Assembly: GCA_024434165.1 (NCBI GenBank)
Contig: QMIW01000028.1
Location: forward strand, 1-45,869
DNA from: Chloroflexota bacterium
GTDB taxonomy: Bacteria; Chloroflexota; Anaerolineae; Anaerolineales; Villigracilaceae
Direction: 5' to 3'
DNA length: 45,869 bases
The notes under the pieces are model-generated. The model did no database searches, had not been told where the DNA came from, and saw nothing but the letters and a program-made list of their open reading frames with translations. Positions 9,934 to 35,244 of this stretch are shown here, one piece after another. How positions within the stretch are numbered: the stretch's first letter is position 1; each line of letters starts with the position of its first letter. The position numbers were made by a program, and so were the translations under genes.

Positions 9934-9961
9934 GCGGACCGCAGGCTTCAGGTATGTACAG

Positions 9962-11656: not shown

Positions 11657-11683
11657 CGTCCACGCCGGAGAGCGAACAGCATT

Positions 11684-13378: not shown

Positions 13379-13395
13379 CCGCCTGGAATTCGCTT

Positions 13396-16344
13396 ATGGA
13401 AATGTCTTCATCCCGCAACCCCGGCACAGGCTTACCCGCAGAGCGGTACGCCCGCAATGCCCGCGTCATCACGCTTGCCCTGATGATCATGACGGTGCCG
13501 ACGGCGGCGTTGTTTGCCTATTTTGGGTACATCAACGGCTTCGCTCAATTGTACATCCCCGCCGCGCTGCTCATTGCGACGGCTGTCGTTGACATTCTGC
13601 CCCTGGCGCTGATCAAACGGGGACGCTCCGACCTTGCAATGATGATCGTGATCACGATGTTCATGGCGAATGTGTTGATCGTGCCATTCATCGTGAAGGG
13701 GCTCGGTCCCGTCATTGCAGCTTCGATCATGCTGGTGGTCCTGTCTGCCGCAGGCTTGGCAATGACGCCGAAATACTCCGTCGCCGGCGTGATGGCGGCG
13801 CTGTTGGTTGGAGCCTCGACCATTGCCCTGGACATAGTCCTCGGCGGGAACCGGATTGAAGTTTCGCAGCTGGCGGTCGTCACGCCGTATATCGTGTTCG
13901 GAATCGCGCTGCCCATTTTCCTTGTGCTCATCCGCGAGTTCAGGAATTTCAGCCTTCAGATCAAGATCACCCTGGGCATCCTGCTGGCGGGCAGCGGCAT
14001 CGTGGTAAGCATGATCTTTTTCGGGCTGAACAGCGCGAATGCCATCCTCGGTTCGATCACCGCGAAGTACGAGACCAGCGTCACCAACCAGATCGAGACG
14101 CAGATCTTCGATACGGTGCAGGTGGAGGCGGATAACGCCAACGCGCTTTTCGAGGAAGTCACCCGCGATCTCGTTACCATATCGTTGTACCGCAGGGACA
14201 TAGACTCGCAGCGCTTCGACCTGGCAAGCGGTCAATACTGGAATGCGGCGGAGAAACTCGTGCAACTGCCGGGCGGTCAATACGGAAATTCCGGCGTCGA
14301 CACCGCATCCGTGTACATTCCGAATACCTACCCCGTCACGGAAGAGATGCTGGCGGACCTCAACACCACCATCTATCTCGATTTTCTGGCAACCAGCTAC
14401 CTTGAGGCGCACCCCGAAGTGGCGGCGGTGTACTACATCAGCAGGATGGGCTACACCGTCTATTACCCCAACATCAACCTGGCGCAGAACATCGAGCCGG
14501 ATTTCGACCCCACCCAACAGCCCTTCTTCACCATCGCCACGCCAGACCAAAACCCGGAGCGCCTGCCGCGCTGGACAAAACCCTACCAGGACCCGGCGGG
14601 AGCCGGAATGATCGTAACCCTGTCCATCCCGGTATATTCAAACAACGGAGCATTTTTAGGGGTCCTGGGCGCGGATATTAAACTTGCAAGCATTGCGGAA
14701 AGAATCGCGAACATCCAAATCAGCCCGTCCAGCATCGCATTCCTTGTGGACAAGAACGGGATCGTGCTCGTCATGCCCGAGGCAGGCTACCAGTTGTTCG
14801 GGTTGCAGCCGGAGGATGTGCCGGTCAACGAAAACCCGAAATTGTCCGTCCTTTCCGCCGATTCGGAGATCGGTCTGTTTATTGCCCAGCGCATTGTGAT
14901 CAGCAGGTCCAACCTGATCACGGTTCCAATCCAGGGCGTCCGAACATATCTTGCCATCGCCAGCCTCGAAGCGACGGAATACAAACTGGTGATTCTGGCG
15001 CCGGTCAACGAGTTGAACCAGGAGATTCTCGCATCGCGTTCCGAGATTCAAAACGAAGTTGCCGGTTTTCTAAGAAGCGCCAGCGTGATCCTGGTGCTGT
15101 TGATCATGGGCTCACTGGCGGTCAGTCTGCTGATCGGGCAGTTCATCACCCGTCCCTTGAAGCAGTTGACCAACACCGTTGAAGAGATCGCCGGCGGCAA
15201 CCTTGCCGCCCGCGTGAAAATCGAATCGCAGGACGAAACCGGCTTGCTGGCGCGTTCCTTCAACAGCATGGCAGACAAACTAAACGAGACCCTTTACGGG
15301 CTTGAAGAAAAGGTCGCCGAACGCACCCGCGAACTGGAACGCATCAATGCGAGCAACGCCTACCGCGCCCGGCAGTTCGAAGCCATTGCGCGCATCGCCA
15401 GCACCATCAGTTCCACGCAATCGTTGGACCGCCTCCTGCCGCAGATCACCGAAACGATCTCGGAACAATTGGGCTTCTACCATGTCGGCATCTTCCTGCT
15501 CGATGTTCATAAGGAAAACGCCGTGCTGGCGGCGGCGAACAGCGAAGGCGGCAGAAGGATGCTCGCCCGCAATCACCGCCTGCGGGTCGGCGAAGTCGGC
15601 ATCGTGGGCAATGTGACCTGGTCCGGTCAGCCGCGCGTCGCCCTGGACGTTGGAGCGGATGCGGTTTTCTTCGACAATCCCGACCTCCCAAACACCCGCT
15701 CCGAGATCGCCCTGCCCCTGCTCGCCGGCACGGAAGTCATCGGCGCGCTGGATGTGCAAAGCACGGAAACGAACGCATTTTCGCAGGAGGATGTAAACAT
15801 CCTTTCGGCGCTGGCAGACCAGGTAAGCATCGCCATTCAAAATGCCCGGTCCTACCAGCAAAGCCGCGAAACGCTCGAACAGGCGGAACTCATCGCCGCG
15901 CAGATGAGCGAACAGCAGTGGCTGCAGTTCCTTGCCAGGCAGGATATTCACGGCTACCACTTCGACGGCGTCAACGCAGTGCGGCTCGATATGGGCAATG
16001 AAAAGCCCTCGCACGGTATCGCCATCCCGTTGATTTTGCGCGGCACCCAGATCGGCACGCTCAAACTCAGCGCGAGCGACCCCAACCGGCAATGGGACGA
16101 AGACGAGATCGCGCTGGCGCAGGCAACGGCGGAACGCACTGCGCTTGCCATCGAAAACGCCCGCCTGCTCCAGGAGGCGCAGAAACGGGCGGCGAAGGAG
16201 CGCACGATCGGTCAGATCTCCGAAAAGATCGGGCGTCTCGTCAATCTCGACAACATCCTCAAAACGACCATTCAGGAATTGGGCAATACCCTGCCCGGCA
16301 CGGATATTGCCATCCAGTTCCTTTCCGGGAAACCCGAGCGTTAA
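13396..16344 (+). CDS. Membrane sensor fusing six-helix module, Cache-like domain, HAMP and GAF
   Basis: The 982-residue protein combines both input types seen in the array. Residues ~22-185 form about six membrane helices; a further helix (~190-215) leads into a large extracytoplasmic Cache-like domain (~220-555), followed by a helix (~560-582), HAMP (~580-640, with QDETGLLARSFNSMADKL), a coiled coil, a full GAF (~660-818, with LGFYHVGIFLLD and DAVFFDNPDLPNTRSE), a partial GAF (~872-925) and the common tail. The Cache region contains an FDPTQQPFF segment where the related 825-residue protein has FDVTGRLWY, so the two probably recognise different ligands. There is no output enzyme. ATG 13402 is an alternative start two codons later. 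Confidence 0.87.
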   Translation: MEMSSSRNPGTGLPAERYARNARVITLALMIMTVPTAALFAYFGYINGFAQLYIPAALLIATAVVDILPLALIKRGRSDLAMMIVITMFMANVLIVPFIVKGLGPVIAASIMLVVLSAAGLAMTPKYSVAGVMAALLVGASTIALDIVLGGNRIEVSQLAVVTPYIVFGIALPIFLVLIREFRNFSLQIKITLGILLAGSGIVVSMIFFGLNSANAILGSITAKYETSVTNQIETQIFDTVQVEADNANALFEEVTRDLVTISLYRRDIDSQRFDLASGQYWNAAEKLVQLPGGQYGNSGVDTASVYIPNTYPVTEEMLADLNTTIYLDFLATSYLEAHPEVAAVYYISRMGYTVYYPNINLAQNIEPDFDPTQQPFFTIATPDQNPERLPRWTKPYQDPAGAGMIVTLSIPVYSNNGAFLGVLGADIKLASIAERIANIQISPSSIAFLVDKNGIVLVMPEAGYQLFGLQPEDVPVNENPKLSVLSADSEIGLFIAQRIVISRSNLITVPIQGVRTYLAIASLEATEYKLVILAPVNELNQEILASRSEIQNEVAGFLRSASVILVLLIMGSLAVSLLIGQFITRPLKQLTNTVEEIAGGNLAARVKIESQDETGLLARSFNSMADKLNETLYGLEEKVAERTRELERINASNAYRARQFEAIARIASTISSTQSLDRLLPQITETISEQLGFYHVGIFLLDVHKENAVLAAANSEGGRRMLARNHRLRVGEVGIVGNVTWSGQPRVALDVGADAVFFDNPDLPNTRSEIALPLLAGTEVIGALDVQSTETNAFSQEDVNILSALADQVSIAIQNARSYQQSRETLEQAELIAAQMSEQQWLQFLARQDIHGYHFDGVNAVRLDMGNEKPSHGIAIPLILRGTQIGTLKLSASDPNRQWDEDEIALAQATAERTALAIENARLLQEAQKRAAKERTIGQISEKIGRLVNLDNILKTTIQELGNTLPGTDIAIQFLSGKPER

Positions 16345-16364
16345 TCGCCGCTCAGGAGACTGTC

Positions 16365-18098
16365 ATGTTTTCAAAGATATTTGGATACCTTAGAGACGAA
16401 GAAGACCAGAGCCCGTCCTTTATCAGGCTGACGCGGAACATCCTCATATTCGTCATCCTGACCAATGCCGCCCTCCTGCCGCTGGTGACCGGGTACATCG
16501 GGGAAGGCTCGCGGAACCCAACCGCACTTTTTGCGCTCAGCGTCACCCTCGTGCTGGAAGTCATCGCCTTCTTCAACGTCCAGCGCGGAAAAGTGGGCAT
16601 GGCAAAAATCATCGTGCCGGCGGCGCTCATCCTGGCGGCAACGTTCATTTCGCTTTCCATCAACGGGTTGAAAAACTCCGCCATGGCGGCATTCCCGGTC
16701 ATTTTGTTGATCGCCGCCATTCTGTTGGGAAGGCGCGCGATGCTGCTCGTCGCCCCGCTGGTCGTTGCGGCGCTGATCGTCATTGCCATACGAGACCTTG
16801 GCGGGCAAATCCCGTTTGTCCCCGCCGGGCTGGATGACGCCATCCTGCTGCCCATCCTCGTCCTATCCACAGCAGGCATCATTGACCTGCTGATTCGGCG
16901 CCTGAACGAGAGCATCGAAAGGGCGCGCGCAAGCGAACAACTGCAAAAGGAAGAGAACCGCGAACTGACCCAGCTGCGAAACTCCCTGGAGGAACGCGTT
17001 CAACAGAGAACGTTCGATCTCGAACAAGCCAACCGGCTCAACGAAAGGCGCGCCAGACAGTTCCAGGCGGTGGTGCAGGTAATGAAGGCGATTTCCACCT
17101 ACCAGGATTTGGATACCCTCCTGCCGCGCATCACGCACGTGATCAGCGAGCAATTTGGAAACTATCACACCGGCATCTTCCTGTTCGACAGCCAGCGAGA
17201 GTACGCGGTCCTGCGCGCCGCCAACAGCGAAGGCGGACAAAAAATGCTGGCGCGCGGACACAAACTCCAGGTCGGGCAGACGGGTCTCGTCGGCTTTGTG
17301 ACAGCCACCGGTCAGGCGCGCATCGCCCTCGACGTTGGAGCGGATGCGGCTTTCTTCAACAATCCCGACCTCCCGAACACCCGCTCCGAAATCGCCCTGC
17401 CGCTGCGGTTTGCCAACCAGATCATCGGCGCGCTCGACGTGCAAAGCGTCGAGGCGGACGCATTCAACGAAGATGATATTGACGTGTTGGGCACGCTGGC
17501 AGACCTGGTGGCGGTGGCAATCAACAACGCCTTCACCATCGAAAAAGCGCAGCAATCCCTTGCGGAAGCGCAGAGCGCGCTCGGCGAAACGGCGCGCGAA
17601 GCCTGGCAGGTGATGCGTCCGAAAACGCTCGGACTGGGTCTGCAATTGACCGAATCCAGCGTTCGACCCCTTGAGCAGCCACTCGAAGGTCGTCACGTCC
17701 TGGAGGCGGTCAAAAAAGGCAAAACGACCCTGACAACACACGAAAACGGCAGGACGCTGATCGCGATTCCCGTCCGCCTGCGCGATCAAATCGTCGGCGT
17801 CATCCAGATCGGCGCACGCAAGGATGCCGCCCTGACAGAGGACGATACCGAGATCGCCGAGGCGGTGGCGGAACGACTTTCGCTCGCCATCGAAACGGCG
17901 ACCCTCCTGCAAGCCACGCAGCAGCGCGCCGAGATCGAACGGGTCACCACCGCCATCACCACCCGCATCAGCGCCTCCACCCGCTTCGAAACCATTTTGC
18001 AGACCGCCGCGCAGGAACTCAGCCGCGCCCTGGGCGGTTCGGATGTCCTGGTTCAGATTGAGCCGGTTGCACTTGAATTAAGCGTTGAAAATCAGTAG
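16365..18098 (+). CDS. Six-helix membrane GAF sensor 5
   Basis: ATG 16365 is chosen because AGGAG lies at 16354-16358 and the preceding gene stops at 16344; a longer in-frame reading upstream overlaps that gene. The 577-residue protein has six membrane helices (~22-170), a coiled coil (~180-228), a full GAF (~231-390) carrying FGNYHTGIFLFD and DAAFFNNPDLPNTRSE, a spacer, a partial GAF segment (~462-525: AIPVRLRDQIVGVIQI) and the conserved tail (ending near residue 577). It has no kinase or effector domain. The DNA encoding the FFNNPDLP loop is nearly identical to that in the neighbouring 982-residue gene, pointing to recent duplication or gene conversion. Confidence 0.86.
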   Translation: MFSKIFGYLRDEEDQSPSFIRLTRNILIFVILTNAALLPLVTGYIGEGSRNPTALFALSVTLVLEVIAFFNVQRGKVGMAKIIVPAALILAATFISLSINGLKNSAMAAFPVILLIAAILLGRRAMLLVAPLVVAALIVIAIRDLGGQIPFVPAGLDDAILLPILVLSTAGIIDLLIRRLNESIERARASEQLQKEENRELTQLRNSLEERVQQRTFDLEQANRLNERRARQFQAVVQVMKAISTYQDLDTLLPRITHVISEQFGNYHTGIFLFDSQREYAVLRAANSEGGQKMLARGHKLQVGQTGLVGFVTATGQARIALDVGADAAFFNNPDLPNTRSEIALPLRFANQIIGALDVQSVEADAFNEDDIDVLGTLADLVAVAINNAFTIEKAQQSLAEAQSALGETAREAWQVMRPKTLGLGLQLTESSVRPLEQPLEGRHVLEAVKKGKTTLTTHENGRTLIAIPVRLRDQIVGVIQIGARKDAALTEDDTEIAEAVAERLSLAIETATLLQATQQRAEIERVTTAITTRISASTRFETILQTAAQELSRALGGSDVLVQIEPVALELSVENQ

Positions 18099-18110
18099 GC
18101 GCAGCAGGTT

Positions 18111-20966
18111 ATGAGAAACAGTATGACAACCATGACGGACGACAGGAATCGGAAAGAACCGAAACCCCTTCAGCAGCGGCTGGCGGCAAGCATCACGCTG
18201 ATCACCTTCATCCTGATGATCGCCGTGGCTGTGACGACCGTATTTTTCATCGCTCCCGAAGACAAGACGCCGATAGATAATTTCATGATGCCCCTGGTCG
18301 CCCTGACCGCCGGGTACAGTTTTTACCAGACGCAAAGAGGTTCCTACATCCGCGGGGTTTACGTGCTGTTGGGAACGATTATCGCCGCCGCCATGGCGTA
18401 CTCCATCGTGGTGGATAATGTCGGCTGGCAGGCGGCAATCGGCATGCTGGTCATCGTGACCAGCATTACAAACGGCACCCTGCCGGACCTGACTGCAAGA
18501 CGAATCACGACCGGAGCGTTCGCCGCCGCCATAGGCATCGTGTTTACGGACCTGTTCCTGCCCGGCTTGATGGAATTCCCCGTCACCATCAGTTCGATCG
18601 TCGTCACGGGCATCCTCGGCGCCATCTATGCAGGGCTGATGCTTTACCGCTTCCAGCGCTATGCCCTGCGCACAAAACTCATCATCGCTTTCGCCTTTCT
18701 GGCTTTTGTCTCCGTGGGCGCCGCGGCGATTGCGATCAGCCAGACAACCCTCGTGCAATTAAGCGAAAAGGTTCAGCAGCAACTTTTTACCACCGCCACG
18801 CTGACCTCATCATCGTTCAGCTCGGAATTGGATAAACAGGTGGACCTGCTTCGTACGCTCGCGGGCAACCGCACCCTGCTCGCCGGGCTGGTAAAAGCCA
18901 GCCTGAACGCGGAGAGCGACCTTGAAACATTGAAGGAATTGGATCAGGAATGGATGTCTGTTCCTGCCGAAAACAATATGGATCCTCTCATCCGTTCGGT
19001 GCTGGAAAATGAAATTTCAACAGAATTAAAGGAATTTCAGGACGCCTTTCCCGAACACGTGGAAATTTTCGTCACCGACCAGCATGGCGCGACGGTCGCG
19101 GCGACCAACCGCACATCCGATTATTATCAGGCAGACGAAGAGTGGTGGATCGCCGCATACAACAACGGGATCGGCGGGGTTTATATCAGCCAGCCCGAAT
19201 TCGATGAAAGCGCCGAAACTTTGTCCATTCAAATGGCGGTTCCGGTATTCCGGTTTGGCACAAACGAGGTGACAGGCATCCTTCGCACCACCGTCAGCCT
19301 TTCCGCATTCGAGGAGGCGTTCAAATCCGGCAAATTCGGCGAAACCGGGCGGACCGAGATCTACCTTCCCGACGGTACCGAAATGGAATACTCCTTGCAG
19401 GAGAACGGCGAATATGAAATAGAACTCGAAGAGGCGCCAGCCGATTTTCGAGCCACCCTTCAGGAAAACAGGACATACTACGATACGACCCACGAAGGCG
19501 TCCAGATCCTGGCAGCTGTCTCACCCCTGAACATCGTCGGAGATGAAGAAGGGAGCATCGCCATGCGGAATCTGGGCTGGCGGATCATCACCATGCAGGA
19601 CCGCCAGGAGGCGCTTCAAATCGTGAGTGAGGCAACCCGAAACGCCCAGATCGTGGGTCTTGGGTCTCTTGTTGCCGCGGTGCTTTTGGCGATCTTCATA
19701 ACGCAATACCTCGCCACGCCCATTGCCCATCTCACCCGCATCGCAGAAGAGGTGACATCCGGCAATTTGAACGTCACCGCAAAGGTGGAGACCGAGGACG
19801 AGATTGGCGCGCTTGCGGAATCGTTCAACCGCATGACCATCCAATTGCGCGACAGCCTGACAAACCTGGAACGGCGCGTGGCGGAACGCACCGCCGACCT
19901 TGAAATCGCCCGCCAGCAAAGCGACAGGCGCGCCAGCCAGCTGCTTGCCGCCGGTGAAATTTCCAAGATCATCAACAGCGAGCAGAACCTGGAAACCCTG
20001 CTCGCGCTGGTGGCGCGTCTGGTCAGCGAACGGTTCGGCTATTACCACACAGGCATTTTCCTCGTTGACGAAACAAGACAATACGCCGTGTTGAAATCCG
20101 CAAACAGCGAAGGCGGACAAGTGATGCTGAAGCGTGGGCATAAACTCGCGCTGGGCGAAGGAATTGTGGGGCATGTTGCCAGATATGGCGAGCCGCGCAT
20201 CGCCCTGGATGTTGGGTCGGATGCGGTTTTCTTCAACAACCCAGACCTCCCGAATACCCGCTCCGAAATGGCGCTTCCGCTCAATTATCTCGACACGACC
20301 ATCGGCGTTCTGGATGTGCAGAGCGAAAAGCCGGGCGCATTTACCGACGACGACACCAACACGCTGAGAATCCTCGCAGACCAGATCGCCATCGCCATCC
20401 AAAACACCCGCTTGTTCGAGCAGACCCAGCAGACTCTCGATGAGCTGCAGGCAGTCTACCGTCAGAACCTGCAGGAAGGCTGGAAAATCTTCCACCGCGA
20501 AGAAGGCGTGGTCGGCTATTACCAGGGGTTGAGCGGCGGAAGAAGACTCTCCGAGACCGTAAATACGCTGGAGATCCAGCAGACCCTCAATCGCGGCGAA
20601 ACGTCCGTCTTCCACGCGGATGGAAAGACGAATGAACCCTCGCTGGTCGTCCCCATCAAACTGCGCGGGCAGATCATCGGCGTCATCCAGATCAAATCGC
20701 CGTCCAGAGACCGGATGTGGACATCCAACGAAATCAACCTCTCGGAAGCCGTTTCCGAACGCCTCTCGCTCGCGCTCGAAAACGCCCGCCTCCTGCAGGA
20801 ATCGCGGCGGCAAGCCATCATGGAACAGACCATCAGCGACATTACCGGAAAGATCGGCTCATCCATCAACCTTGAAAACGTCCTGCAGACCGCCGTCGAG
20901 GAACTTGGCAGGACCATCCCCGGCTCGGAAGTGATCATCCGCATCAAGGATGACAACAGGGAATAA
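18111..20966 (+). CDS. Membrane sensor fusing multi-helix module, Cache domain, HAMP and GAF
   Basis: This 951-residue protein has six N-terminal membrane helices (~22-185), a seventh (~188-210), an extracytoplasmic Cache-like domain (~215-500; DYYQADEEWWIAAYNNGIGG around the ligand pocket of dCache proteins), an eighth helix (~511-533), HAMP (~530-590, with EDEIGALAESFNRM), a full GAF (~610-770, FGYYHTGIFLVDE and DAVFFNNPDLPNTRSE), a partial GAF (~843-897: VVPIKLRGQIIGVIQI) and the common tail. It lacks any output enzyme. The start is uncertain: in-frame ATGs exist at 18111, 18123 and 18132 and none has a strong ribosome-binding site. It shares its unusual eight-helix layout with the 982-residue protein. 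Confidence 0.86.
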   Translation: MRNSMTTMTDDRNRKEPKPLQQRLAASITLITFILMIAVAVTTVFFIAPEDKTPIDNFMMPLVALTAGYSFYQTQRGSYIRGVYVLLGTIIAAAMAYSIVVDNVGWQAAIGMLVIVTSITNGTLPDLTARRITTGAFAAAIGIVFTDLFLPGLMEFPVTISSIVVTGILGAIYAGLMLYRFQRYALRTKLIIAFAFLAFVSVGAAAIAISQTTLVQLSEKVQQQLFTTATLTSSSFSSELDKQVDLLRTLAGNRTLLAGLVKASLNAESDLETLKELDQEWMSVPAENNMDPLIRSVLENEISTELKEFQDAFPEHVEIFVTDQHGATVAATNRTSDYYQADEEWWIAAYNNGIGGVYISQPEFDESAETLSIQMAVPVFRFGTNEVTGILRTTVSLSAFEEAFKSGKFGETGRTEIYLPDGTEMEYSLQENGEYEIELEEAPADFRATLQENRTYYDTTHEGVQILAAVSPLNIVGDEEGSIAMRNLGWRIITMQDRQEALQIVSEATRNAQIVGLGSLVAAVLLAIFITQYLATPIAHLTRIAEEVTSGNLNVTAKVETEDEIGALAESFNRMTIQLRDSLTNLERRVAERTADLEIARQQSDRRASQLLAAGEISKIINSEQNLETLLALVARLVSERFGYYHTGIFLVDETRQYAVLKSANSEGGQVMLKRGHKLALGEGIVGHVARYGEPRIALDVGSDAVFFNNPDLPNTRSEMALPLNYLDTTIGVLDVQSEKPGAFTDDDTNTLRILADQIAIAIQNTRLFEQTQQTLDELQAVYRQNLQEGWKIFHREEGVVGYYQGLSGGRRLSETVNTLEIQQTLNRGETSVFHADGKTNEPSLVVPIKLRGQIIGVIQIKSPSRDRMWTSNEINLSEAVSERLSLALENARLLQESRRQAIMEQTISDITGKIGSSINLENVLQTAVEELGRTIPGSEVIIRIKDDNRE

Positions 20967-20977
20967 GGAATCGTTTT

Positions 20978-23455
20978 ATGAATAGAAACCGGTTTTCCTT
21001 CCTCGATATCCTCGACACCACCTTCATCGGGCGTCTCAAGCTCAGGGAAAAACTGACCCTGGGAAACATGTTCATCACGATCCTGGTCGTCGTCCTGATT
21101 GGTGTCTTTATCTTCCTCAGAAACCAGTTCTCCAGCGGGCAATTGACAACCCAGTTGGAGCAGAACATCCGAACCAGGGTGGAACAAAGCCTGCTTACCA
21201 CCGGCAGGGAACAATCTGCCCTGTTGGGCGTGTTTTTCAGCACCATGAGCCGGAACACATCCGTGATCGGCTCCACCGTTGAGGATACGTTCGCCCAGCG
21301 CAGTCTCCTTGCAGATGGAACGTATTGGGATGCGCGGGAATCCCTCTCCCGGCTCCCTTCCGGCAGTTGGGATAACCCGAACAGCGAAATTTCGTCCATC
21401 TTCATCCCGGCGGAGGTCGAGATCACCAACTCGCTCGCGGCAAAACTGAACACGCTCAAGTACACCGAACTAGTATTCCCTTCCATCCTTGCCGATAACC
21501 CCGATATCATCGCCATCTACTTCGGCGGCGTCACCAGGGAGACCATCTATTATCCGAACATTGATCTGGCGGCGATTGTCCCGCCGGATTTCGACGTGAC
21601 GGGGCGGCTCTGGTACGTGAATGCCGCGCCCGAAAACAATCCCGAACGGGATGTGGTCTGGTCAACGCCGTACCAGGATGCCGCGCTTAATGGACTGGTC
21701 ATCACAGCCAGTATTCCGGTATTCAATGAGCGCGAGCAGTTCCAGGGCGTTGCCGCCATGGACGTTCAACTGCTCCAGATCACCACGCTGGTATCGAACA
21801 TCCGCATCGGCAATACCGGCTATGCTTTCCTTGTGGACGACAGCAACCGCCTGATCGCCCTTCCCGATGCAGGCTACACAGACTTCAACATTACAGACGA
21901 AATCGCCAAACTGGGCGAGATCATGGATCCCGCCGTCCTGCCGGCCGCCGCCCCGCAGTTCTTTGAAATTCTGGAAAAGATCGCCGCCGGAGACGAAGGC
22001 GTATTCAGCACAACCATCAACGACACCGAACGCTATGTCGCCTTCCAGCAGGTGCCGGAGGTGGGATACAAACTCGTCCTGGTCGTTCCCGCCGAGGAAC
22101 TGCTCACCGAAGCGGAACTGGTGCGCCAGCAAATCACCAGCGAAACCGGTCGGACGATTACCATCAGCCTCTTGTTGATTGCCGCGATTCTTGTGGCAGC
22201 CACCATCGGCTCGCTTGCCATCGGCAACCGATTCACCCAGCCCCTCGAAAGCCTCACGCAGGTTGCAAAAGAGATCACCGCCGGGAACTTCGATGCAAGG
22301 GCGGAGGTTCGCTCGCAGGACGAAATCGGGACCCTGGCAAACACGCTGAACACGATGACCTCCAGCTTGAAGGAGGCAATTCAATCGCTCGAACAGCGCG
22401 TGCAGGAACGAACGGCGGCGTTGAAACAGGAACAGGAAAAAAGCGAGCGCCGCGCGCGGCAGTACGAAGTCATCGCCAAGGTCGCCCAGACGATCACCAC
22501 CACGCAAAACCTCCTGGAACTCCTGCCGCAGATCACGCAGGTAATCAGCGAGAAATTCGGCTTCTACCACGTCGGCATCTTCCTGATGGACCCCGCCAAC
22601 CAATACGCCGTTTTGGGCGCGGCAAACAGCGAAGGCGGGCGCAGGATGTTGAACCGCGGTCACCAGCTGAGGGTGGGGCAGCAGGGTATCGTCGGTTACG
22701 TGACCGGGACCGGGAAAGCGCGCATCGCCCTGGATGTCGGCGAGGATGCGGTGTTCTTCAACAATCCCGACCTGCCTGAGACCCGTTCCGAAATGGCGCT
22801 TCCGCTTACCATTGCCGGCACCGTCATCGGCGCGCTCGACGTGCAAAGCACCGAACCCAACGCCTTCACCGTCGAGGATGTGGAGGTGTTGACCACGCTC
22901 GCCGACCAGGTCAGCGTTGCCATTCAAAACGCGCAGTCTTACGAGCAGATCCAAAAATCGCTGGCGGAGGCGGAAGCGGTCTCCCGCCGCTACTTCAGCG
23001 AGACGTGGAGTCAGATCGCCCAGGAGCAAAGAGTCACCGGTTATCGCTACACGGTCACAGGCACGATTCCCATCGAAGATACCGGCAACGGCAGCCCAAC
23101 CAGCGCGGAAAGCCCGGATAAAAAACAGGTGACTGTTCCCATCATCATCCGCGGCAGGACGGTCGGGGAACTATCCGTCCTCGTTCCAAAACAGGAACAG
23201 ATTCGCATGGATCACATGAACCTGATTCACGCCGTGGCAGACCGCGTGGGCATCTTCGCCGAAAACGCAAGGCTGTTCGACCAGACCTCCCGCCGCGCGG
23301 AACGCGAACGCCTCGTTTCGGATATTTCAAACAAGATTCGCAGCACCAACGATCCAAGGGAGATGCTCGAAACCGCCATCCGGGAACTGCGCCAGGCGCT
23401 GAACGTATCGCATATCGAAATCATCCCGCAGAAAATCACGTCGCCCGACAGGTGA
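20978..23455 (+). CDS. Membrane sensor: dCache domain, HAMP, GAF
   Basis: The 825-residue protein has two membrane helices (~27-47 and ~394-417) flanking a ~345-residue dCache-like ligand-binding domain, then HAMP (~415-475), a coiled coil, a full GAF (~495-655; FGFYHVGIFLMD, DAVFFNNPDLPETRSE), a partial GAF (~716-770) and the common tail. The Cache domain contains R210-x-W212-Y213, then Y232-x-D234 and D262, which resembles the amino-acid-binding motif described for dCache_1AA domains, except that the expected first Tyr is Phe205. An amino-acid ligand is therefore a reasonable guess. AAGGA lies 8 nt before ATG 20978. It is the last sensor before parA and the kinase. Confidence 0.88.
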   Translation: MNRNRFSFLDILDTTFIGRLKLREKLTLGNMFITILVVVLIGVFIFLRNQFSSGQLTTQLEQNIRTRVEQSLLTTGREQSALLGVFFSTMSRNTSVIGSTVEDTFAQRSLLADGTYWDARESLSRLPSGSWDNPNSEISSIFIPAEVEITNSLAAKLNTLKYTELVFPSILADNPDIIAIYFGGVTRETIYYPNIDLAAIVPPDFDVTGRLWYVNAAPENNPERDVVWSTPYQDAALNGLVITASIPVFNEREQFQGVAAMDVQLLQITTLVSNIRIGNTGYAFLVDDSNRLIALPDAGYTDFNITDEIAKLGEIMDPAVLPAAAPQFFEILEKIAAGDEGVFSTTINDTERYVAFQQVPEVGYKLVLVVPAEELLTEAELVRQQITSETGRTITISLLLIAAILVAATIGSLAIGNRFTQPLESLTQVAKEITAGNFDARAEVRSQDEIGTLANTLNTMTSSLKEAIQSLEQRVQERTAALKQEQEKSERRARQYEVIAKVAQTITTTQNLLELLPQITQVISEKFGFYHVGIFLMDPANQYAVLGAANSEGGRRMLNRGHQLRVGQQGIVGYVTGTGKARIALDVGEDAVFFNNPDLPETRSEMALPLTIAGTVIGALDVQSTEPNAFTVEDVEVLTTLADQVSVAIQNAQSYEQIQKSLAEAEAVSRRYFSETWSQIAQEQRVTGYRYTVTGTIPIEDTGNGSPTSAESPDKKQVTVPIIIRGRTVGELSVLVPKQEQIRMDHMNLIHAVADRVGIFAENARLFDQTSRRAERERLVSDISNKIRSTNDPREMLETAIRELRQALNVSHIEIIPQKITSPDR

Positions 23456-23466
23456 GGCAGGCAAGC

Positions 23467-24255
23467 ATGATCAGAACAATCGCAATCTCGAATGAAAAAG
23501 GCGGCGTCGCCAAAACCACCACCGCCCTTTCGCTGGGCGCCGCCCTCGCCGAACTGGGCAGCCGCGTGCTCATGGTTGACCTGGACGCGCAAGCCAACCT
23601 CACGCTTGCCATCGGTTTCGAACCCGGCGAAGCCGAAAAGACCTCCAGCGACATCATGCTCGACAACCTGCCCCTGCTCGCCGCGCGCCGAAAGACCGAG
23701 ATCGAAAACCTCGACCTCGTCCCCTCCAGTTCACGCATCGAAACCTCGGAGCAATTCCTGCCGGTGCGCACGAACTACACCACCATCCTGCAGCGCGCAA
23801 TCAAAAGCACGCCAAACATGCCCTACGATTACATCCTCTTCGACTGCCCGCCCGCGCTGGGAGCCATCACCCGCAATGCGCTTGCCGCCGCAGACCTGCT
23901 CATCATCCCCACGCAGGCAGAGTATTTCTCCGCATACGCCCTCCGCAACATGATGACGCTGATTCGCCGCACCCGCGAGGCGGATAACCCCAGCCTTGCC
24001 TATCGCATCCTCGTCACCATGCTGGACCGCAGGAACCGCACGCACCGCAACATCCACGAGCAGCTGCGTTCCACCTTCGGCGCGGGCGTGTTCAATACGA
24101 CCATCGAGCTCGACACCAAACTACGCGAAAGTCCCATCGCCGGTCTCCCGATCACGCATTACAAATCCGCCGCGCGCGGATCCACGCAATACCGCGTCCT
24201 CGCCCAGGAGTTATTGGAATATGCCAAGGAAACAGAAAACAAGCAAACGGCTTGA
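23467..24255 (+). CDS. ParA/MinD-type ATPase (Soj-like)
   Basis: The 262-residue protein is a ParA-family deviant Walker ATPase: KGGVAKTTT at 11-19 with the signature Lys11 and catalytic Lys16, switch I/Walker A-prime around VDLDAQANL, and Walker B in [10 protein letters not shown]. It has no N-terminal DNA-binding extension and there is no parB gene or obvious parS nearby, so a plasmid or chromosome segregation role is not indicated. ParA-like proteins also position protein arrays, such as chemosensory clusters, and its location inside a receptor-kinase operon favours that kind of role. It overlaps the hybrid kinase gene by 35 bp. ATG 23467 is preferred; a GTG at 23452 would add five residues and overlap the upstream stop. 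Confidence 0.92.
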
Positions 24256-27200
24256 TAATCTCTTCAAGGATATCCGACCCGAAGAGGATGTTCGGGAACC
24301 GAAGAGCAAGCCCAAGGTCCAGAAAGAAGCGCCGCCGCCTCAACCGGACCCGAAACCTGCTTCCCAACCCCAGGTCGTATCCACGCCGGCTGCTTCGCCT
24401 GCCAAACGCTCGACCTCCCGGCTGGTCCTGCCGGATATCGTCGCGCCTGCGCCAGGCGGAACCTCCGGGGCGGTCTTCGCAACGAATTTCCAAATCGGGA
24501 CGAACGATTGGGCGGTCCTGCGTTTGATTGACGAACGCGAAGGGCGCGTCTTCACCGCGGACGAACAGCTGCTCATCAAGCAGGTGACGGATCAGTTGTC
24601 GCTGGCATTGGAGAATGCGCGTCTGTTTCAGGAAACGCAGAAACGCGCGCAGGAACTTGCCGCCGTCAACCAGGTGGTGACTTCCGTTTCGGGGCTGCTC
24701 GAGTTAACTCCCACTCTCCAAACCATTGCCGAAAGCCTGGTCGGGCTTTTCTCGGCAAGCAGGGTGAGCGTTGCCATGCTGGACGAGAACAGGACAAGCC
24801 TGATCATTCAGGCAGACGCCGCGAACACCTTTGAAAAATCCCCATTCATTGGGTCTTCGGTTGTGGTTTCGGAAAGCCCGTCCATCGAGGAGGTCCTGCG
24901 CGCCCGCAGACCCTTGTTCATCCGCAGCGCGCCGGAGAGTCCGCTTTCCGGTTCCGCCCGCGACCTGTTCAAAAAGCGCGGCACGGTAAACCTGCTCATT
25001 GCGCCGCTGGTTGCCGGGGACGAAGTGATCGGCACGGTAAACCTGGATTTTGCCGAGGTGGAACGCCTCATCTCACAGGACGACCTGCGCCTGCTCGAAA
25101 CCATCGTGGTCCAGACCGGCACTGCAATCCAGAAAAACCGCCTGTTCGAACGCATCGAGCAATCGGAAACCAACCTGCGCGCCCTCTTCTCCGCCATGGA
25201 AGACGTGGTGCTGGTCATCACCCGTGAAGGACGGTACGACCAGATCGCGCCGACCAATCCATCCCTGTTGGTGCGTCCGCCGCAGGAGCTGCTCGGCAAG
25301 ACGTTCCATGACGTTCTGCCGAAGGAAGTGGCAGACCATTTCCTCGAAAAAACCCTGCAAGCGTTGAACAGTTCGGAAAAAGTCCAATTCGAATACGACC
25401 TGCCGATCAACGAACACGTCTTCTGGTTTCTGGCAAGCCTGACAAAACTGGACGAGGACAGGGTCTTCTGGGTTGCCAGGGATATTACGGAACGCAAAAA
25501 AGCGGAGGAAATCATTCAACGCCGCAACGAATACCTCGCGGCTTCGGCGGAGATCGGCAGGCTGGTCACATCCACCCTCGATCTCAACACCATCTTTGCC
25601 CGCACCGTGAATTTGATCAACGAACGGTTTGGTTTCTATCACGCGGCGATCTTCGTGGTGGAGGAGACCGGTTTCAATGCGGTCTTGAAGGAAGCCACAG
25701 GCGCGGCGGGCATGGAAATGAAAAAACGGGAGCACTCCCTCCCGATTGACAGCACATCCATCGTGGGCAAGGTGGCCGCCGAAGGCGCGCCCGTCATCGT
25801 AAACGACACCACAAAGGATGCCCTGCTCCACAGACCCAACCCCCTGCTCCCGGAGACCCGCGCAGAAGCCGCCATCCCCCTGCGGATCGGTTCGCGTATC
25901 ATCGGCGCGCTCGACATTCAGTCCAAGACGGCGGGCGTGTTTACCGAAGATAATATCTCCGTTCTGCAAACGCTCGCCGACCAGATCGCCGTCGCCATTG
26001 ACAACGCGCGTTCGTTCGAACTTTCGCAGCAGGCGGTGATGGAAATGCGCGAGGTGGACCGCCTCAAGAGCCAGTTCCTCGCCAACATGAGCCACGAACT
26101 GCGCACGCCGCTCAATTCGATCATCGGCTTTTCGCGCGTCATCCTCAAGGGCATTGACGGACCCGTGACCGAATTGATGCAGCAGGACCTAACCGCCATC
26201 TACAATTCCGGTCAGCATCTGCTCGGTCTGATCAACGACATCCTCGACCTGGCGAAGATCGAAGCCGGCAAGATGGAACTGGCGTTCGACGAAGTCAACA
26301 TCTCGGACCTGGCAAACAGCGTCCTTTCCACGATGACGGGGCTGATCAAGGACAAGCCCATTCAGATGAAGAAGGTCATCGAGCCGAACCTGCCCACCGT
26401 GCGGGCGGATGCGATTCGCGTTCGTCAGGTGATGATCAATCTGCTTTCGAACGCGGCAAAATTCACCGAGGAAGGGGAGATCACCGTGACGGTCGCTTCC
26501 CAGTTGGGACCGGGAGGTCAGGGCGAGATCGTCGTCAGCGTGACAGATACCGGACCCGGCATCTCCGAAGCGGACCAGGAGAAACTCTTCCTGCCGTTCT
26601 CGCAAGTGGACGCCTCCCCCACCCGCAAGACGGGCGGGACGGGTCTTGGTCTGTCCATCTGCCAGCAGTTGATCAACATGCACGGCGGCAGGATCTGGGT
26701 CGAATCCGAAATCGGCAAAGGAAGCACCTTCCACTTTACCCTGCCGCTTTTCCGCAAGGAGAGCGAAGTGCATGTTGACGGCAACAAGATGATTCTGTCC
26801 ATTGACGACGACGCGCAGGTGATCGGGCTCTATGAGCGCTACCTCCAGCCGCAGGGGTATCATGTGATACCATTGACCGACCCGGCGCGCGCCGTGGAAC
26901 GGGTGAAACAGGTCAAGCCGTTTGCCGTTACACTCGACATCATGATGCCCGGCATTGACGGCTGGACGGTGCTCGAAAAACTGAAGAGCGATCCCGAAAC
27001 GCGCAATATCCCGGTGATTGTGTGCAGTATCGTCGAAGAGTATGAAAAAGGCTTCAATCTCGGCGCGACCGATTATCTGGTGAAGCCGATTCTGGAAGAG
27101 GACCTGGTCAACTCGCTGGACCGTTTGAACGCGGATGGGTCCATCCGCGAAGTGCTGGTGATAGACGACAACCGCGACGACCTGCGCCTGCTCGGTAAAA

Positions 27201-27544
27201 TGTTGAACGACGACGGCAGGTACAAAGCCGTGCTGGCGGAAGGCGGGCGAAGCGGCTGGAATTTGATCTCCACCGGCAATCCGCCGCACGCCATCATCCT
27301 CGACCTGTTCATGCCGGATGTCAACGGTTTCCAGATCCTCGAACGATTGCAGGCAGACCGGAGACTGCGCGACATCCCGGTGATCGTTATCAGCGGTATG
27401 GACGTATCGTCCGAACAAAAGAAACAACTTGAGGAGTTCGGTCAACGGCTCCTGACCAAGGGTTCGTTCAACGAAAAGGAATTGCTGACTTCCATCCAGC
27501 GCGCGCTCGACCGGATTCAGGCAAAGAAAAACTCAGGAGTTTGA
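24221..27544 (+). CDS. Hybrid sensor histidine kinase (GAF-PAS-GAF-HisKA-HATPase-REC-REC)
   Basis: ATG 24221 has GGAG ~10 nt upstream and lies within the end of parA; a longer in-frame reading is antisense-like overlap. The 1107-residue protein is cytoplasmic, with no membrane helix. In order: basic/proline-rich linker (1-75), partial GAF (~80-140: VLRLIDE to [10 protein letters not shown]), full GAF (~142-315), PAS (~318-430), GAF (~435-600), HisKA with phospho-acceptor H625 in SHELRTPL, HATPase_c (~725-840, [23 protein letters not shown]), REC1 (D906, Lys in LVKP) and REC2 (D1028, Lys in LTKGSF). It is the only kinase of the array and the obvious receiver of signals from the nine kinase-less sensors. 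Its partial GAF lacks the N-terminal half. The intact catalytic residues suggest an active phosphorelay kinase. Confidence 0.93.
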
Positions 27545-27549
27545 CCCAC

Positions 27550-29202
27550 GTGTCATTCATCATCAAGTGCCTCGACTGCGGGCACAACGCACCCTACTAC
27601 CCCACCTCCACCAACTGCCCAAAGTGCAACAGTCAGTGGCGCGAAGCGGAATACGACTACGAAATGATCGGGAAAACCCTGCTCCCCAAACTGGCGGGGC
27701 GGGGAAACGATCTCTGGCGTTACAAGGAACTGCTCCCGGTTCGCAACCCCAACATCAGCCTGTCGCTCGGCGAGGGTCACACCCCGTTGATTCGCGCCGT
27801 CAACCTGGGCATGATGCTGGGCTGCCCGAACATCTTCATCAAGGACGAACGGCAGGGACCGACCGCCTCCTTCAAGGACCGGCAGGCGGCGGTCACCATT
27901 GCTGCGCTGAAGGAAGCGGGCATCACTGAACTGGTCGCGGCTTCCACGGGGAACGTCGCCATTTCCTATTCCGCGTATGCCTCCCGGGCGGGGATGAAAC
28001 TCTGGGCGTTTGTCACCAGCCTGGTCCCGTCGGTAAAGATGCGCGAGATCGCCCTGTACGGAAGCCAGGTCATCAAGATCACCGGTTCCTACGACCAATG
28101 CAAACAGGTCGCGGCGGAGTTCGCGCGCCAGCGCCGCTTGTATTTGGATATGGGCGCGCGCACCATCACCTCCATCGAGGCGATGAAGACGATTGCCTTC
28201 GAAATCTCGGAGCAGTTGACAAATATTCACGGTCCGGGAGAAAACGCCCCCTGGCGCACGCCGGACTGGTACGTGCAAGCCATCAGCGGCGGGATGGGAC
28301 CGCTGGGCGTTTACAAGGGCTTCCGCGAAATGCAGCAAATGGGCTGGGTGGACCGCATCCCGGCGTTCGCGCCGATTCAGGCGGAAGGCTGCGCGCCGAT
28401 GGTCGTCAGCTGGAAAAAGGGTCTTGATAAAGCGGAGACGATCAGTTCACCCAAGACCCGCATCGAAACCCTGGCAACCGGCGACCCGGGGCGTTCCTAT
28501 GAATTTCTGAAGAAATACGTTGACAGCACGAACGGCGCCTTCGAAAGCGTGAGCGATGAAGATGCCTTCCGCGCCATGCACGTGCTGGCAAAGATGGAGG
28601 GCATTTCCGCCGAGCCCGCCGCGGCGGTGGCGTTTGCGGGGCTGTTCAAACTGATTCGTGCCGGTATCATCAAACCCAGCGACACGGTGGTGGTCAACTG
28701 CACCGGGCACACCATGCCTGCCGAGCCGGGCGTGCTGGGCGATAACTGGTCGCGCGACATCAAGTTCCCCTCCACGATGGAGACGCCTCAGGAAGGATTG
28801 CTCGCCGCGCTTACCCAGGTCGCGCCGGAACGCTTCCCCAAGATCGTCATTGTAGAGGATACGATGGAGGCGCGCCGGTTGATTCGGCGCATTCTGCAAT
28901 CGCAGGGGAACTTCACCATCATGGAAGCCGAAAACGGGCGGGCGGGTCTCGAATTGATCCAGCGCGAACTGCCCGATCTGGTGGTCCTCGATCTGATGAT
29001 GCCGGAGATGGACGGCTTTGCGGTCATCGAAGCGCTGCGCGCCAACCCGGAGACGGCGGTCATCCCCATCATTGTTGCCACCGCAAAAGAACTGACGCCC
29101 GACGAGAAAAACCGGCTGGGCGGGCACATCCAGGCATTGATGCAAAAAGGCGATTTCCTGAACGACGAATTTTTGGAGGAAGTCAAATCGTTGATCAAAT
29201 AG
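27550..29202 (+). CDS. Threonine synthase-like PLP enzyme fused to a receiver domain
   Basis: GTG 27550 is chosen because AGGAG (27535-27539) lies 10 nt upstream; TTG 27541 would be only 1 nt from it. The 550-residue protein begins with a Cys4 zinc-ribbon-like segment (C7, C10, C23, C26), then a fold-type II PLP domain of the threonine synthase family: Schiff-base Lys109 in SFKDRQA, the STGN phosphate/cofactor loop, and SGGMGP. Threonine synthase converts O-phosphohomoserine to threonine. Residues ~430-550 are a complete receiver: acidic pair in IVIVEDT, phospho-acceptor D481 (LDLMMPEMDG), Thr in VATAKE and Lys in MQKGDF. Threonine synthases normally lack a receiver. It sits 5 bp after the hybrid kinase, whose REC2 shares the atypical Lys-Gly-x-Phe motif. 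Related PLP enzymes cannot be excluded for the catalytic part. Confidence 0.9.
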   Translation: MSFIIKCLDCGHNAPYYPTSTNCPKCNSQWREAEYDYEMIGKTLLPKLAGRGNDLWRYKELLPVRNPNISLSLGEGHTPLIRAVNLGMMLGCPNIFIKDERQGPTASFKDRQAAVTIAALKEAGITELVAASTGNVAISYSAYASRAGMKLWAFVTSLVPSVKMREIALYGSQVIKITGSYDQCKQVAAEFARQRRLYLDMGARTITSIEAMKTIAFEISEQLTNIHGPGENAPWRTPDWYVQAISGGMGPLGVYKGFREMQQMGWVDRIPAFAPIQAEGCAPMVVSWKKGLDKAETISSPKTRIETLATGDPGRSYEFLKKYVDSTNGAFESVSDEDAFRAMHVLAKMEGISAEPAAAVAFAGLFKLIRAGIIKPSDTVVVNCTGHTMPAEPGVLGDNWSRDIKFPSTMETPQEGLLAALTQVAPERFPKIVIVEDTMEARRLIRRILQSQGNFTIMEAENGRAGLELIQRELPDLVVLDLMMPEMDGFAVIEALRANPETAVIPIIVATAKELTPDEKNRLGGHIQALMQKGDFLNDEFLEEVKSLIK

Positions 29203-29220: not shown

Positions 29221-29276
29221 TCCGCAGGCAGATTTCGGATGAAAACGAAGGACTGAAGAGCCTGCGGAATTTTATT
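29221..29276 (+). terminator. Probable terminator of the sensor operon
   Basis: A perfect 9-bp inverted repeat (TCCGCAGGC 29221-29229 and GCCTGCGGA 29260-29268) is followed by ATTTTATTT. The 30-nt loop is long for a classical rho-independent terminator, but the position directly after the last gene of the array fits. Confidence 0.55.
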
Positions 29277-29282
29277 TGAAGG

Positions 29283-30254
29283 GTGCAATCAAAAAGGCTG
29301 GCGAATTTGTCGAAGAAACAAACTGCCGGAATTCTATCGGCTTTCAGCTCGGCAATTTTTCTGGGGATGGCGCCCGTTTTCGGGAAGCTTGCCATCCTGC
29401 AGGGCTTCACGCCTTTCGCGGTGGTTGCGCTTCGCACCGGGCTTGCAGCGGGAATCATGCTGGCGGTCATGCTGGTTTTCCATCGGCGATTTCTTTACAT
29501 TTTCCCCATTGGACTCGTCGGCTGTATTTTGGCGGGCGCGATCAACGGGTTTGGTTCGTTGTTTTATTACATGGCATTAAGCCGGCTCGACGCAAGCCTG
29601 GGTCAGCTGCTTTATTCGCTTTATCCGTTCTTCGTTGCGCTCTGGCTCATCCTCGACCACCAGCCGCCGAGCCGGCTTACCTTCTTCCGCATCACGCTCG
29701 CCACGATAGCCGTCCTCCTGCTCACCAGCGTTCCCAACCGCTCCGTTGACCCGCTGGGGGTCTTGATGATGATCGGCGCGGCGATCCTGTATGCAATGCA
29801 CCTGCCCATCAACCAGCGCGTGTTGTACGAGGTCCCCGCTCCCACCGTCGCCCTTTATACGCTTCTGTCAATGAGTGCGGTGGTCGTTCCGGCGTATTTG
29901 ATATTCGACCGCGTATGGCCCTCCGGGGATGTCCCCTGGCTGCCCGTCACTGCGCTTACGTTCGTCACCCTGTTTTCGAGGATTGCGCTCTTCCTCGGCG
30001 TGAAAAAGATCGGCGGGATGCAGACCGCCCTGCTGGGACTCGCCGAACTTCTGATTGCGATTCTGCTAAGCAATGTGCTGCTGGATGAGAGCCTTTCCTT
30101 CGTCCAATGGCTCGGCGCGGTCGGACTCAGCGTCAGCTTGATTCTGGTAATGTATGAGAAGCCCGTCCTGCCGCCGCACAGCGGGAAGACAGGCTGGCTT
30201 TCATGGATTCGCCCTCCCAACCTGCCAAAGGATGCGTTCGGTCCGTATGAATGA
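29283..30254 (+). CDS. DMT-superfamily transporter (EamA)
   Basis: The 323-residue protein has about ten hydrophobic helices arranged as two EamA repeats (first repeat ~15-145, second ~160-295), the typical architecture of drug/metabolite transporters that export or import small metabolites. The N-terminal Ser-Ala-Phe-Ser-Ser-Ala-Ile-Phe-Leu-Gly-Met motif and the second-repeat segment around LLGLAELLIAILLSNVLLDE match the family. The substrate cannot be predicted. The listed GTG start at 29283 has only a close AAGG; TTG 29307 with AAGG ~9 nt upstream is an alternative that removes eight residues. It lies after the operon terminator and before a bidirectional terminator, so it may be transcribed alone. 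A link to threonine or amino-acid export is possible from position but not shown. Confidence 0.88.
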   Translation: MQSKRLANLSKKQTAGILSAFSSAIFLGMAPVFGKLAILQGFTPFAVVALRTGLAAGIMLAVMLVFHRRFLYIFPIGLVGCILAGAINGFGSLFYYMALSRLDASLGQLLYSLYPFFVALWLILDHQPPSRLTFFRITLATIAVLLLTSVPNRSVDPLGVLMMIGAAILYAMHLPINQRVLYEVPAPTVALYTLLSMSAVVVPAYLIFDRVWPSGDVPWLPVTALTFVTLFSRIALFLGVKKIGGMQTALLGLAELLIAILLSNVLLDESLSFVQWLGAVGLSVSLILVMYEKPVLPPHSGKTGWLSWIRPPNLPKDAFGPYE

Positions 30255-30304: not shown

Positions 30305-31030
30305 CTACTTGCTGCCTTCGTACAGATAGCCGGTGCCGCGCACGCTGACCACGCGCTCGGAGAGCGAAGGGAAGTTCTCCAATTTGTGGCGCAGCCTGCT
30401 CACCAGCGGACGCAGGATTTCCGGCGCTTCACGCTGGGTGGTGTCGTATCCCTGGACCAATAACACCAACTCCCGATGGGAGAAGACCTTGCCCTCGTTC
30501 TCCATCAGGATGCGCAGTAAACGTCCTTCGGCGGGGGTGAGATGCTCCACCTTGCTCTTGTGCTTGATCTGCCGCCGGGAGAGGTCAACCATGGTGCCGT
30601 CCTTCAGTGTAAAGATGTCCTGCCCGCTTTCGATGCTGGCGGCGGCAAGCGAAGTGCGCGCTTTTGAACGGCGGGACAATCCCTTCTTAACGCTGGCAAG
30701 GATCTGGGCAGGGGAGGCCGGTTTCAGGAGATAGTCGTGGATCCTGAGGCGCAGCGCCTGCACAGCAGACTCAATGGAGCCGTGGGCGGTCAGAAGGATG
30801 ATCTCGGTTTCCGGGGAAACCTGGTTGACCACCTGAATCACTTCCAAACCGTCCATGCCGGGCATTTTCAAGTCAACCACCATTAAATCCACAGCATGGG
30901 TGCGGACGTGCTCGACCGCCGCCTGTCCATTTGGCACGGAGTTAACGACATAGCCTTCCAACTTTAAAATATCCGTGAGGGATTGCCGGGCGACGGGTTC
31001 ATCATCAACGACGAGAATGTTCGACTTCAT
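30305..31030 (-). CDS. OmpR-family-like DNA-binding response regulator
   Basis: Starting at ATG 31030, which overlaps the stop of the upstream kinase by 4 bp (ATGA), the gene encodes 241 residues. A receiver domain (1-120) has D9/D10, phospho-acceptor D53 (in MVVDLKMPGMDG), Thr in LLTAHG and K103 in LLKP. After a ~35-residue linker comes a winged-helix domain (~160-240) of the transcriptional-regulator C type, with LTPAEGRLLRILMENEGKVFS and VVSVRGTGYLYE marking its start and wing. It is therefore a transcription factor activated by the kinases encoded just upstream. Reading frames that extend further upstream on this strand are antisense to the kinase gene and are not real. Its targets are unknown. 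Confidence 0.92.
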   Translation of the reverse strand: MKSNILVVDDEPVARQSLTDILKLEGYVVNSVPNGQAAVEHVRTHAVDLMVVDLKMPGMDGLEVIQVVNQVSPETEIILLTAHGSIESAVQALRLRIHDYLLKPASPAQILASVKKGLSRRSKARTSLAAASIESGQDIFTLKDGTMVDLSRRQIKHKSKVEHLTPAEGRLLRILMENEGKVFSHRELVLLVQGYDTTQREAPEILRPLVSRLRHKLENFPSLSERVVSVRGTGYLYEGSK

Positions 31031-32604: not shown

Positions 32605-32610
32605 GATTCG

Positions 32611-35208: not shown

Positions 35209-35217
35209 GTGTATCGA

Positions 35218-35223
35218 ATTATA
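35218..35223 (-). promoter_or_regulatory. -10 element for the three-gene kinase operon
   Basis: TATAAT on the minus strand (ATTATA on plus) ends 9 bp before the kinase start codon at 35208, so transcription would begin within a few bases of the ATG and give an almost leaderless message. No good -35 box is visible at 17 bp. It lies within a 45-bp divergent gap. Confidence 0.45.
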
Positions 35224-35238
35224 CAATAGCCCGAATGG

Positions 35239-35244
35239 TAAAAT
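35239..35244 (+). promoter_or_regulatory. -10 element for trmFO
   Basis: TAAAAT ends 9 bp before the trmFO ATG at 35254, and no Shine-Dalgarno sequence is present. A start site 6-8 bp downstream would give a leaderless or nearly leaderless mRNA. The arrangement mirrors the -10 element on the opposite strand in the same gap. Confidence 0.4.

Follow-up and report, generated by a model that had tools for sequence, protein, structure and literature searches.

A threonine synthase-like PLP domain joined to a receiver next to a hybrid histidine kinase in a Chloroflexota bacterium

The output of two-component systems is mostly transcription, cyclic dinucleotides or motility. Examples of a receiver on a standard metabolic enzyme have been seen several times before, and the enzymes named in the relevant section of that work (a KaiC-family NTPase, a BcsA-like glycosyltransferase, a thioredoxin reductase and a pyruvate phosphate dikinase) do not include a PLP enzyme (PMC5847659). 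A PLP enzyme together with a receiver-derived domain is likewise found in the winged AAT-fold lysine/ornithine/arginine decarboxylases; the main text of the paper on these proteins does not contain the stem 'phosphorylat' (PMC8503589). For plant threonine synthase (ThrC), activation by SAM is reported in excerpts of a further article (PMC3174156). A search of the openly licensed PubMed Central literature, judged by titles and the beginnings of abstracts, gave no paper on a protein in which ThrC or another PALP domain is joined to a receiver, and an earlier mention is possible.

The window, i.e., the whole stretch of 45,869 nucleotides analyzed here, lies on contig C89 of a 4.4 Mb Chloroflexota genome (class Anaerolineae) in 173 contigs. 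At positions 27550-29202 of its forward strand it carries a single gene encoding 550 aa, with a fold-type II PLP domain and a C-terminal receiver. We estimate at about 60% the probability that the product acts as a response regulator with a fold-type II PLP enzyme as its output, switched by the adjacent kinase.

The fused gene and its constrained residues

The fused gene sits in an uninterrupted open frame (27541-29202, forward strand). The GTG at 27550 is its likely start, since AGGAG is found at 27535-27539 and near relatives start at the same place. Only 5 nt separate this GTG from the stop codon of the upstream kinase (27542-27544), as an earlier sequence-only reading of this DNA had noted. 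Residues are numbered here from V1 at GTG 27550 (550 aa), and Pfam residue ranges follow a 553-residue numbering. The features of the locus are:

2821..23455, forward strand: nine consecutive GAF proteins, several with HAMP, dCache or MASE11 inputs, with a shared C-terminal tail
23452..24255, forward strand: ParA/MinD-like AAA_31 ATPase (PF13614, E 6e-49), between the sensor genes and the kinase
24221..27544, forward strand: hybrid kinase of ~1107 aa with GAF/PAS, HisKA, HATPase_c and two receivers (Pfam)
27550..29202, forward strand: fused gene (550 aa, GTG start) with a four-cysteine ribbon, PALP (threonine-synthase-like PLP domain) and a receiver
27568..27627, forward strand: N-terminal four-cysteine ribbon C7, C10, C23, C26, all four Cys in 87/87 fused proteins
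27763..28707, forward strand: PALP domain (fold-type II PLP enzyme, PF00291), given by the genome search as C89:27763-28707
27874..27876, forward strand: codon of the Schiff-base Lys109 (SFKDR), invariant in 87/87
28285..28302, forward strand: family-specific glycine loop S246-G-G-M-G-P251 (SGGxGP in 72/72 fused proteins gathered with this very pattern, and in 87/87 of an alignment gathered without it)
28843..29199, forward strand: receiver domain (PF00072, E 3.3e-19)
28990..28992, forward strand: codon of the predicted phospho-acceptor Asp481, invariant in 87/87
29221..29268, forward strand: inverted repeat of two perfectly matching 9-nt arms around a 30-nt loop, followed by T-rich sequence, in the gap that separates the fused gene from EamA
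29283..30254, forward strand: EamA-family transporter (PF00892, E 1.1e-23), 80 nt downstream of the fused gene

In the 553-residue numbering, Pfam placed PALP at residues 75-389 (E 5.2e-64) and Response_reg at residues 435-526. K109 lies within SFKDR and D481 within DLMMPEMDG, and the window protein also has E436/D437, T511 and K533, so that the residue set of the receiver is complete. Both an intact Schiff-base lysine and a complete receiver with its phospho-acceptor had been claimed from the sequence, and both claims stand.

Residue conservation was counted over 87 aligned fused proteins, no two of them identical. In the PALP part K109, S132-T133-G134-N135, S246-G247-G248 and G250-P251 are identical in all 87 proteins, and so are R101, Q112, K163, Y181, K185, Q243, C281, T310 and H387. 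In the receiver the same is true of D437, D481 and K533, while position 436 is occupied by E or D (45+42 of 87) and position 511 by T or S (65+22 of 87). Seven of the invariant PALP residues (R101, Q112, K185, Q243, S246, P251 and T310) differ in all seven ThrC-like rows aligned, two of which represent one protein; the fused family therefore has a constrained pocket of its own. SGGxGP is absent from the three unfused ThrC-like proteins of the window genome. By alignment to ThrC, the SGGMGP loop is the putative PLP-phosphate loop, and the four-cysteine ribbon presumably binds metal.

The best solved relatives of the protein are threonine synthases (2d1f, E 8.1e-42). The best AlphaFold2 model, built with 15 sequences, reached a mean pLDDT of 74.3 and a pTM of 0.68, and the other four models mean pLDDT values of 53-61. 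This model has pLDDT values under 50 in the linker (387-426) and over most of 511-550, and it does not position the receiver reliably relative to PALP. Its VIA Z was 42.9 to the Arabidopsis threonine synthase 2c2b and 39.2 to CapA2.

Relation to threonine synthases and distribution of the family

Thirteen PALP matches were found in the window genome. An unfused ThrC at C124:4588-5700 (306 bits to TIGR00260, cut-off 167.1) adjoins thrB at C124:3753-4571 (229 bits, cut-off 168.25), and the housekeeping ThrC is therefore unfused. A second, unfused threonine synthase, for which the sequence-only reading had proposed to look, is thus present. The window copy of the fused gene gave 255 bits to PRK08197 (cut-off 303) and 154 bits to TIGR00260 (cut-off 167.1), and the two other fused copies of this genome 249/164 and 276/159 bits, respectively, so that none reaches either cut-off. 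The label of threonine biosynthesis first given to the protein is not upheld by these results. That the window protein is the sole ThrC of its genome is excluded by the unfused ThrC beside thrB and by separate matches in other genomes. A recent fusion of the housekeeping ThrC was also rejected: the fused proteins are 45-89% identical to the window protein, whereas the full-PALP matches that come next among those listed for the class share 32-37% identity and end near residue 392-430.

A genuine threonine synthase, which converts O-phosphohomoserine to threonine as one of several isozymes and has gained receiver control, is an unlikely reading of the family, though the second in rank. The nearest solved structures and the best NCBIfam matches are threonine synthases, a PRK08197-type ThrC (L119 17059-18237) lies two genes past the second fused copy of the window genome, and 14 fused homologues among 43 genomes exceed the TIGR00260 cut-off of 167.1; relatedness to ThrC is therefore not in question, only function. 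However, besides the canonical ThrC adjoining thrB and the low scores of all three copies of the window genome, a separate match (with or without a receiver) above the TIGR00260 cut-off was revealed in 42 of the 43 fused-bearing genomes, and in the remaining one (G037) such a match falls just below the cut-off and lies beside the fused gene. The distinct invariant signature of the fused family also speaks against this reading. The motif NSxNPxR, which we take to be part of the ThrC site for the substrate phosphate, was found in none of the 63 family proteins scored (the anchor pattern failed in 13 of 76). The canonical ThrC of contig C124 has the motif, but two other ThrC-like proteins of the window genome (C42 and C159b) lack it, which lowers its value as a test for ThrC.

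In a quick tree of the PALP part, which carries a long-branch warning, a branch with SH-aLRT 100 separates 76 family rows from six ThrC-like rows; the latter were chosen as such for the outgroup, and two of them are one protein. This branch, too, speaks against a recent fusion of the housekeeping ThrC. Judging from these comparisons, the fused protein is ThrC-like by descent and probably distinct from threonine synthase. The family is an annotation trap, since similarity alone would name its members threonine synthase.

Another possibility, which we consider improbable and rank third, is that the PALP domain is non-catalytic: with an amino acid or PLP as its ligand, it would act as a sensing or scaffold module and tune the flow of phosphate through the receiver. 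In many loci the gene does lie among sensor and kinase genes and not among recognised biosynthetic genes, and the MiST authors mention, in excerpts of their article, enzyme-like domains of signalling proteins that have no activity (PMC10767990). Yet none of the 87 proteins deviates at the Schiff-base Lys or at the PLP-loop residues, and the neighbouring genes, a transporter or in a single genus mtnA, point to metabolism. Moreover, relatives without the receiver exist, and their lysine and SGGMGP are what is expected if the PALP domain works as an enzyme by itself.

These relatives come from the cyanobacterial phylum, where 4 of 194 genomes match with 46-48% identity over the PALP part. Three of the proteins (L185, L186, L187) end without a receiver, and the fourth (L188) runs off its contig. 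The whole signature is kept in L186 and L188; in L185 and L187 the K, STGN and SGGMGP remain, but S107 is replaced by T and H387 by R. In the tree these four proteins group together among the fused rows (SH-aLRT 97 for the group, 98 for its junction with fused rows), which suggests that the receiver was lost, with the caveat that the branches are long. An MFS efflux-like gene (TIGR00711, 170 of 230 bits) is located directly upstream of L186, and a GH3-family (acyl-amino-acid ligase-like) gene at L187 7628-9304 converges on the receiver-free relative at a distance of 7 nt.

Of 298 genomes sampled from the class, 100 have a fused-type match (E 1e-80 or better, 45-100% identity), in a few cases a partial one (e.g., G049, G104, G132). 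At E 1e-60 or better 133 of 298 genomes match; the other 33 are 32-37% identical and of the ThrC-like kind among the matches listed, save one partial match (G261). A sample of 400 genomes from the phylum gave 42 with a match at 1e-75 or better, and seven of these 42 lie outside the class. Fused proteins elsewhere are 45-89% identical to the window protein, full length and derived from many assemblies. The closest named relatives (L039-L042, 86-89% identity) belong to Chloroflexi assemblies, three of which are labelled Anaerolineales, Anaerolinea and Candidatus Villigracilaceae. In a contig pattern scan, which reaches close relatives only, the first 15 of the best 80 of 592 relatives were full length (L039-L053) and the remaining 65 matched solely from residue 382 onward. 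One fused match (L014) has a TAA inside the matched span. With the PALP part as query, no match at E 1e-80 was obtained in 199 genomes of the phylum of G661 or in 249 genomes of the phylum of G662, an absence that is weak as these searches had no positive control. Seven of 11 single genomes from other groups match at 1e-30, with 29-35% identity and over the PALP part only.

The search for the pair of threonine synthase and receiver with its genomic context, which the sequence-only reading had suggested, thus revealed the pair in 100 of 298 class genomes with a conserved kinase linkage. The same reading had called such fusions rare. In fact, this one is widespread in the phylum and is present in three copies in the window genome, and joins of a receiver with a metabolic enzyme are already reported as a kind (PMC5847659). 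That an assembly or frameshift artefact joined two genes, as would be suspected if no related genome had the fusion, can be dismissed because homologues of the same architecture, full length and 45-89% identical, recur across many assemblies of the class and in some beyond it.

Kinases, sensors and transporters around the fused gene

Neighbours were counted in 72 loci (74 fused locus rows less two identical copies, L153 and L206), which are a selection from the matches plus named loci and include close relatives. Four more loci (L160, L174, L198, L207) hold the signature, were missed by the gene caller and stand outside the 72; a kinase is located 160 nt upstream in L174, and none was found upstream in L160.

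A histidine kinase is the next upstream gene on the same strand in 57 of the 72 loci, and 56 of these 57 kinases contain the H-box pattern. If a called frame in between is tolerated, the kinase is upstream in 59/72 loci, and a same-strand kinase no more than two genes away on either side was found in 64/72. Each of the three fused copies of the window genome comes after a kinase gene. The window hybrid kinase is the likely phospho-donor of the fused protein, and the fused gene with its conserved kinase linkage would fit direct control of an enzyme, which the sequence-only reading had proposed.

No same-strand kinase within two genes was found in eight of the 72 loci (L146, L152, L154, L157, L191-L194). 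Three of them (L146, L193 and L194) belong to two genomes of a single genus and have an mtnA-like gene before the fused gene in place of the kinase, so kinase control is not universal. Scores to TIGR00512 (cut-off 279) were obtained for two of the mtnA-like genes, 457 and 454 bits; the third was recognised by the peptide at its start, equally far from the fused gene. This neighbour is a clue, in one genus, to sulphur or methionine-salvage chemistry.

The gene directly after the fused gene encodes a receiver-kinase hybrid in 19/72 loci and a single receiver in 14/72, and 10 of the 72 fused proteins carry two receivers. The locus of the second fused copy in the window genome (L119 14903-18237) consists of a kinase, the PALP-receiver gene, a single receiver and the unfused PRK08197-type threonine synthase (574 bits, cut-off 303); with our own profiles the same gene order was seen in L150. 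The view that the fused receiver is a simple recent copy of a kinase receiver was not supported, as on a receiver tree (74 rows, few columns) only two changes of label account for the 26 first fused receivers. Within the 14 loci whose kinase has a second receiver, this receiver and the fused one are 31-51% identical, again over few columns.

No kinase domain was found in the nine GAF proteins at 2821-23455. All nine end with a tail of ~55 residues that resembles a GAF-to-GAF junction, and the tail profile also matches inside the window kinase (195-268, 34 bits), which by eye starts with no more than the final portion of a GAF. In 43 related loci the profile matched 83 of 187 upstream same-strand non-kinase genes, in all 83 cases at the C-terminus, and it gave no C-terminal match in 181 downstream genes. 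By way of a split GAF, the shared tail may allow many sensors to dock on a single kinase. Neither the sensor tail nor the N-terminal stretch of the kinase had a match by itself (a GAF match in Pfam in the case of the tail), and the two joined as letters gave only a weak 15.6-bit match to the C-terminal part of GAF. The ParA/MinD-like ATPase is the second gene upstream in 17/72 loci. It should be added that genes resembling ABC substrate-binding proteins, which we take to be NMT1-like or PhnD-like, occur among the sensor and kinase genes of L119 (10865-11863), L120 (9555-11545), L142, L158 and L159. They are a possible extracellular ligand input, and only L142 of these five loci has EamA.

On the downstream side, EamA is found at position +1 or +2 in 32 of 72 loci; on the same strand it is at +1 in 22/71 and at +2 in 10/68. 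Same-strand EamA was detected at no other position from -7 to +7 in the 72 loci with a profile made from window-type neighbours, which could miss remote EamA. Four divergent EamA genes were confirmed by Pfam, and L199 has EamA on the opposite strand. In 40/72 loci, some of which reach the contig end, no EamA was called at +1 or +2. By comparison, the whole window genome has 28 EamA domain matches, which correspond to 14 genes. At least nine changes are required to place the EamA label on the PALP tree, against 25.5 when labels are shuffled, and the label therefore belongs to certain branches.

The 9-nt inverted repeat and T-rich stretch could be a terminator or attenuator and may separate the transcripts of the fused gene and EamA. 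The repeat folds with -21.9 kcal/mol (z -1.43), and 21 of 200 shuffles were as good. Since this is only slightly better than the shuffles, the fused gene and EamA probably share a transcript, though this is uncertain. Opposite EamA, at 30308-36072 on the reverse strand of the window, lies a second signalling cluster composed of a winged-helix response regulator, a receiver-kinase hybrid and a GAF kinase; genes like these follow EamA in a good number of window-type loci.

Proposed role and comparison with known systems

If the fused protein is a response regulator with an enzymatic output, the GAF sensor proteins would feed the upstream hybrid kinase, and the kinase would phosphorylate Asp481, either directly or via its own two receivers. 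Once phosphorylated, the receiver would alter how active the PLP domain is or how it assembles. Among those family members that branch with the window protein, the neighbouring EamA would carry a small-molecule product or substrate. The phosphotransfer, the effect on catalysis and the transport link in this scheme are putative. The fused family suggests that cells may switch the making of an amino-acid-like compound by signalling and not by gene expression. A more elaborate chain can be drawn, in which interchangeable GAF sensors, perhaps completing a split GAF, act on one hybrid kinase and through it on the PLP enzyme, whose amino-acid-type compound leaves the cell by dedicated EamA export, possibly as a cell-cell signal; taken as a whole it is doubtful and speculative. 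Should the enzymatic-output reading be true, the locus would offer a clean case of kinase control over a small-molecule enzyme, with the transporter as a lead to the product.

Comparison with known systems revealed that the fused family shares with ThrC (TIGR00260, NF006050/PRK08197; 2d1f, 1uim, 2c2b) the fold, the PLP lysine in SFK and a GN-type loop, and the N-terminal Cys ribbon is also present in the PRK08197-type ThrC of the window genome (C159b). It differs from ThrC in having a receiver, SGGxGP instead of GNAGN or GGGTG, and no NSxNPxR. Cysteate synthase (TIGR03844; CapA2, 9k3c) belongs to the same PLP superfamily and has the second-best VIA Z; in contrast, the three copies of the window genome score only 110-124 bits to TIGR03844 (110.2, 123.6 and 111.6, cut-off 324.9), and the phmmer E is only 3.5e-06. 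The winged decarboxylases, as described in excerpts, have another PLP fold and an N-terminal receiver-like domain, whereas the window protein has PALP with a C-terminal receiver (PMC8503589). The metabolic-enzyme response regulators are also close: in both cases a receiver and an ordinary metabolic-enzyme domain are combined in one lineage-restricted chain, but the fused PALP-receiver family, unlike the examples named there, spans many families of its class (PMC5847659). Thus, a receiver with a metabolic enzyme is a known kind of protein, and what appears new here, as far as the openly licensed papers searched go, is the PALP-receiver pairing, its breadth and its linkage.
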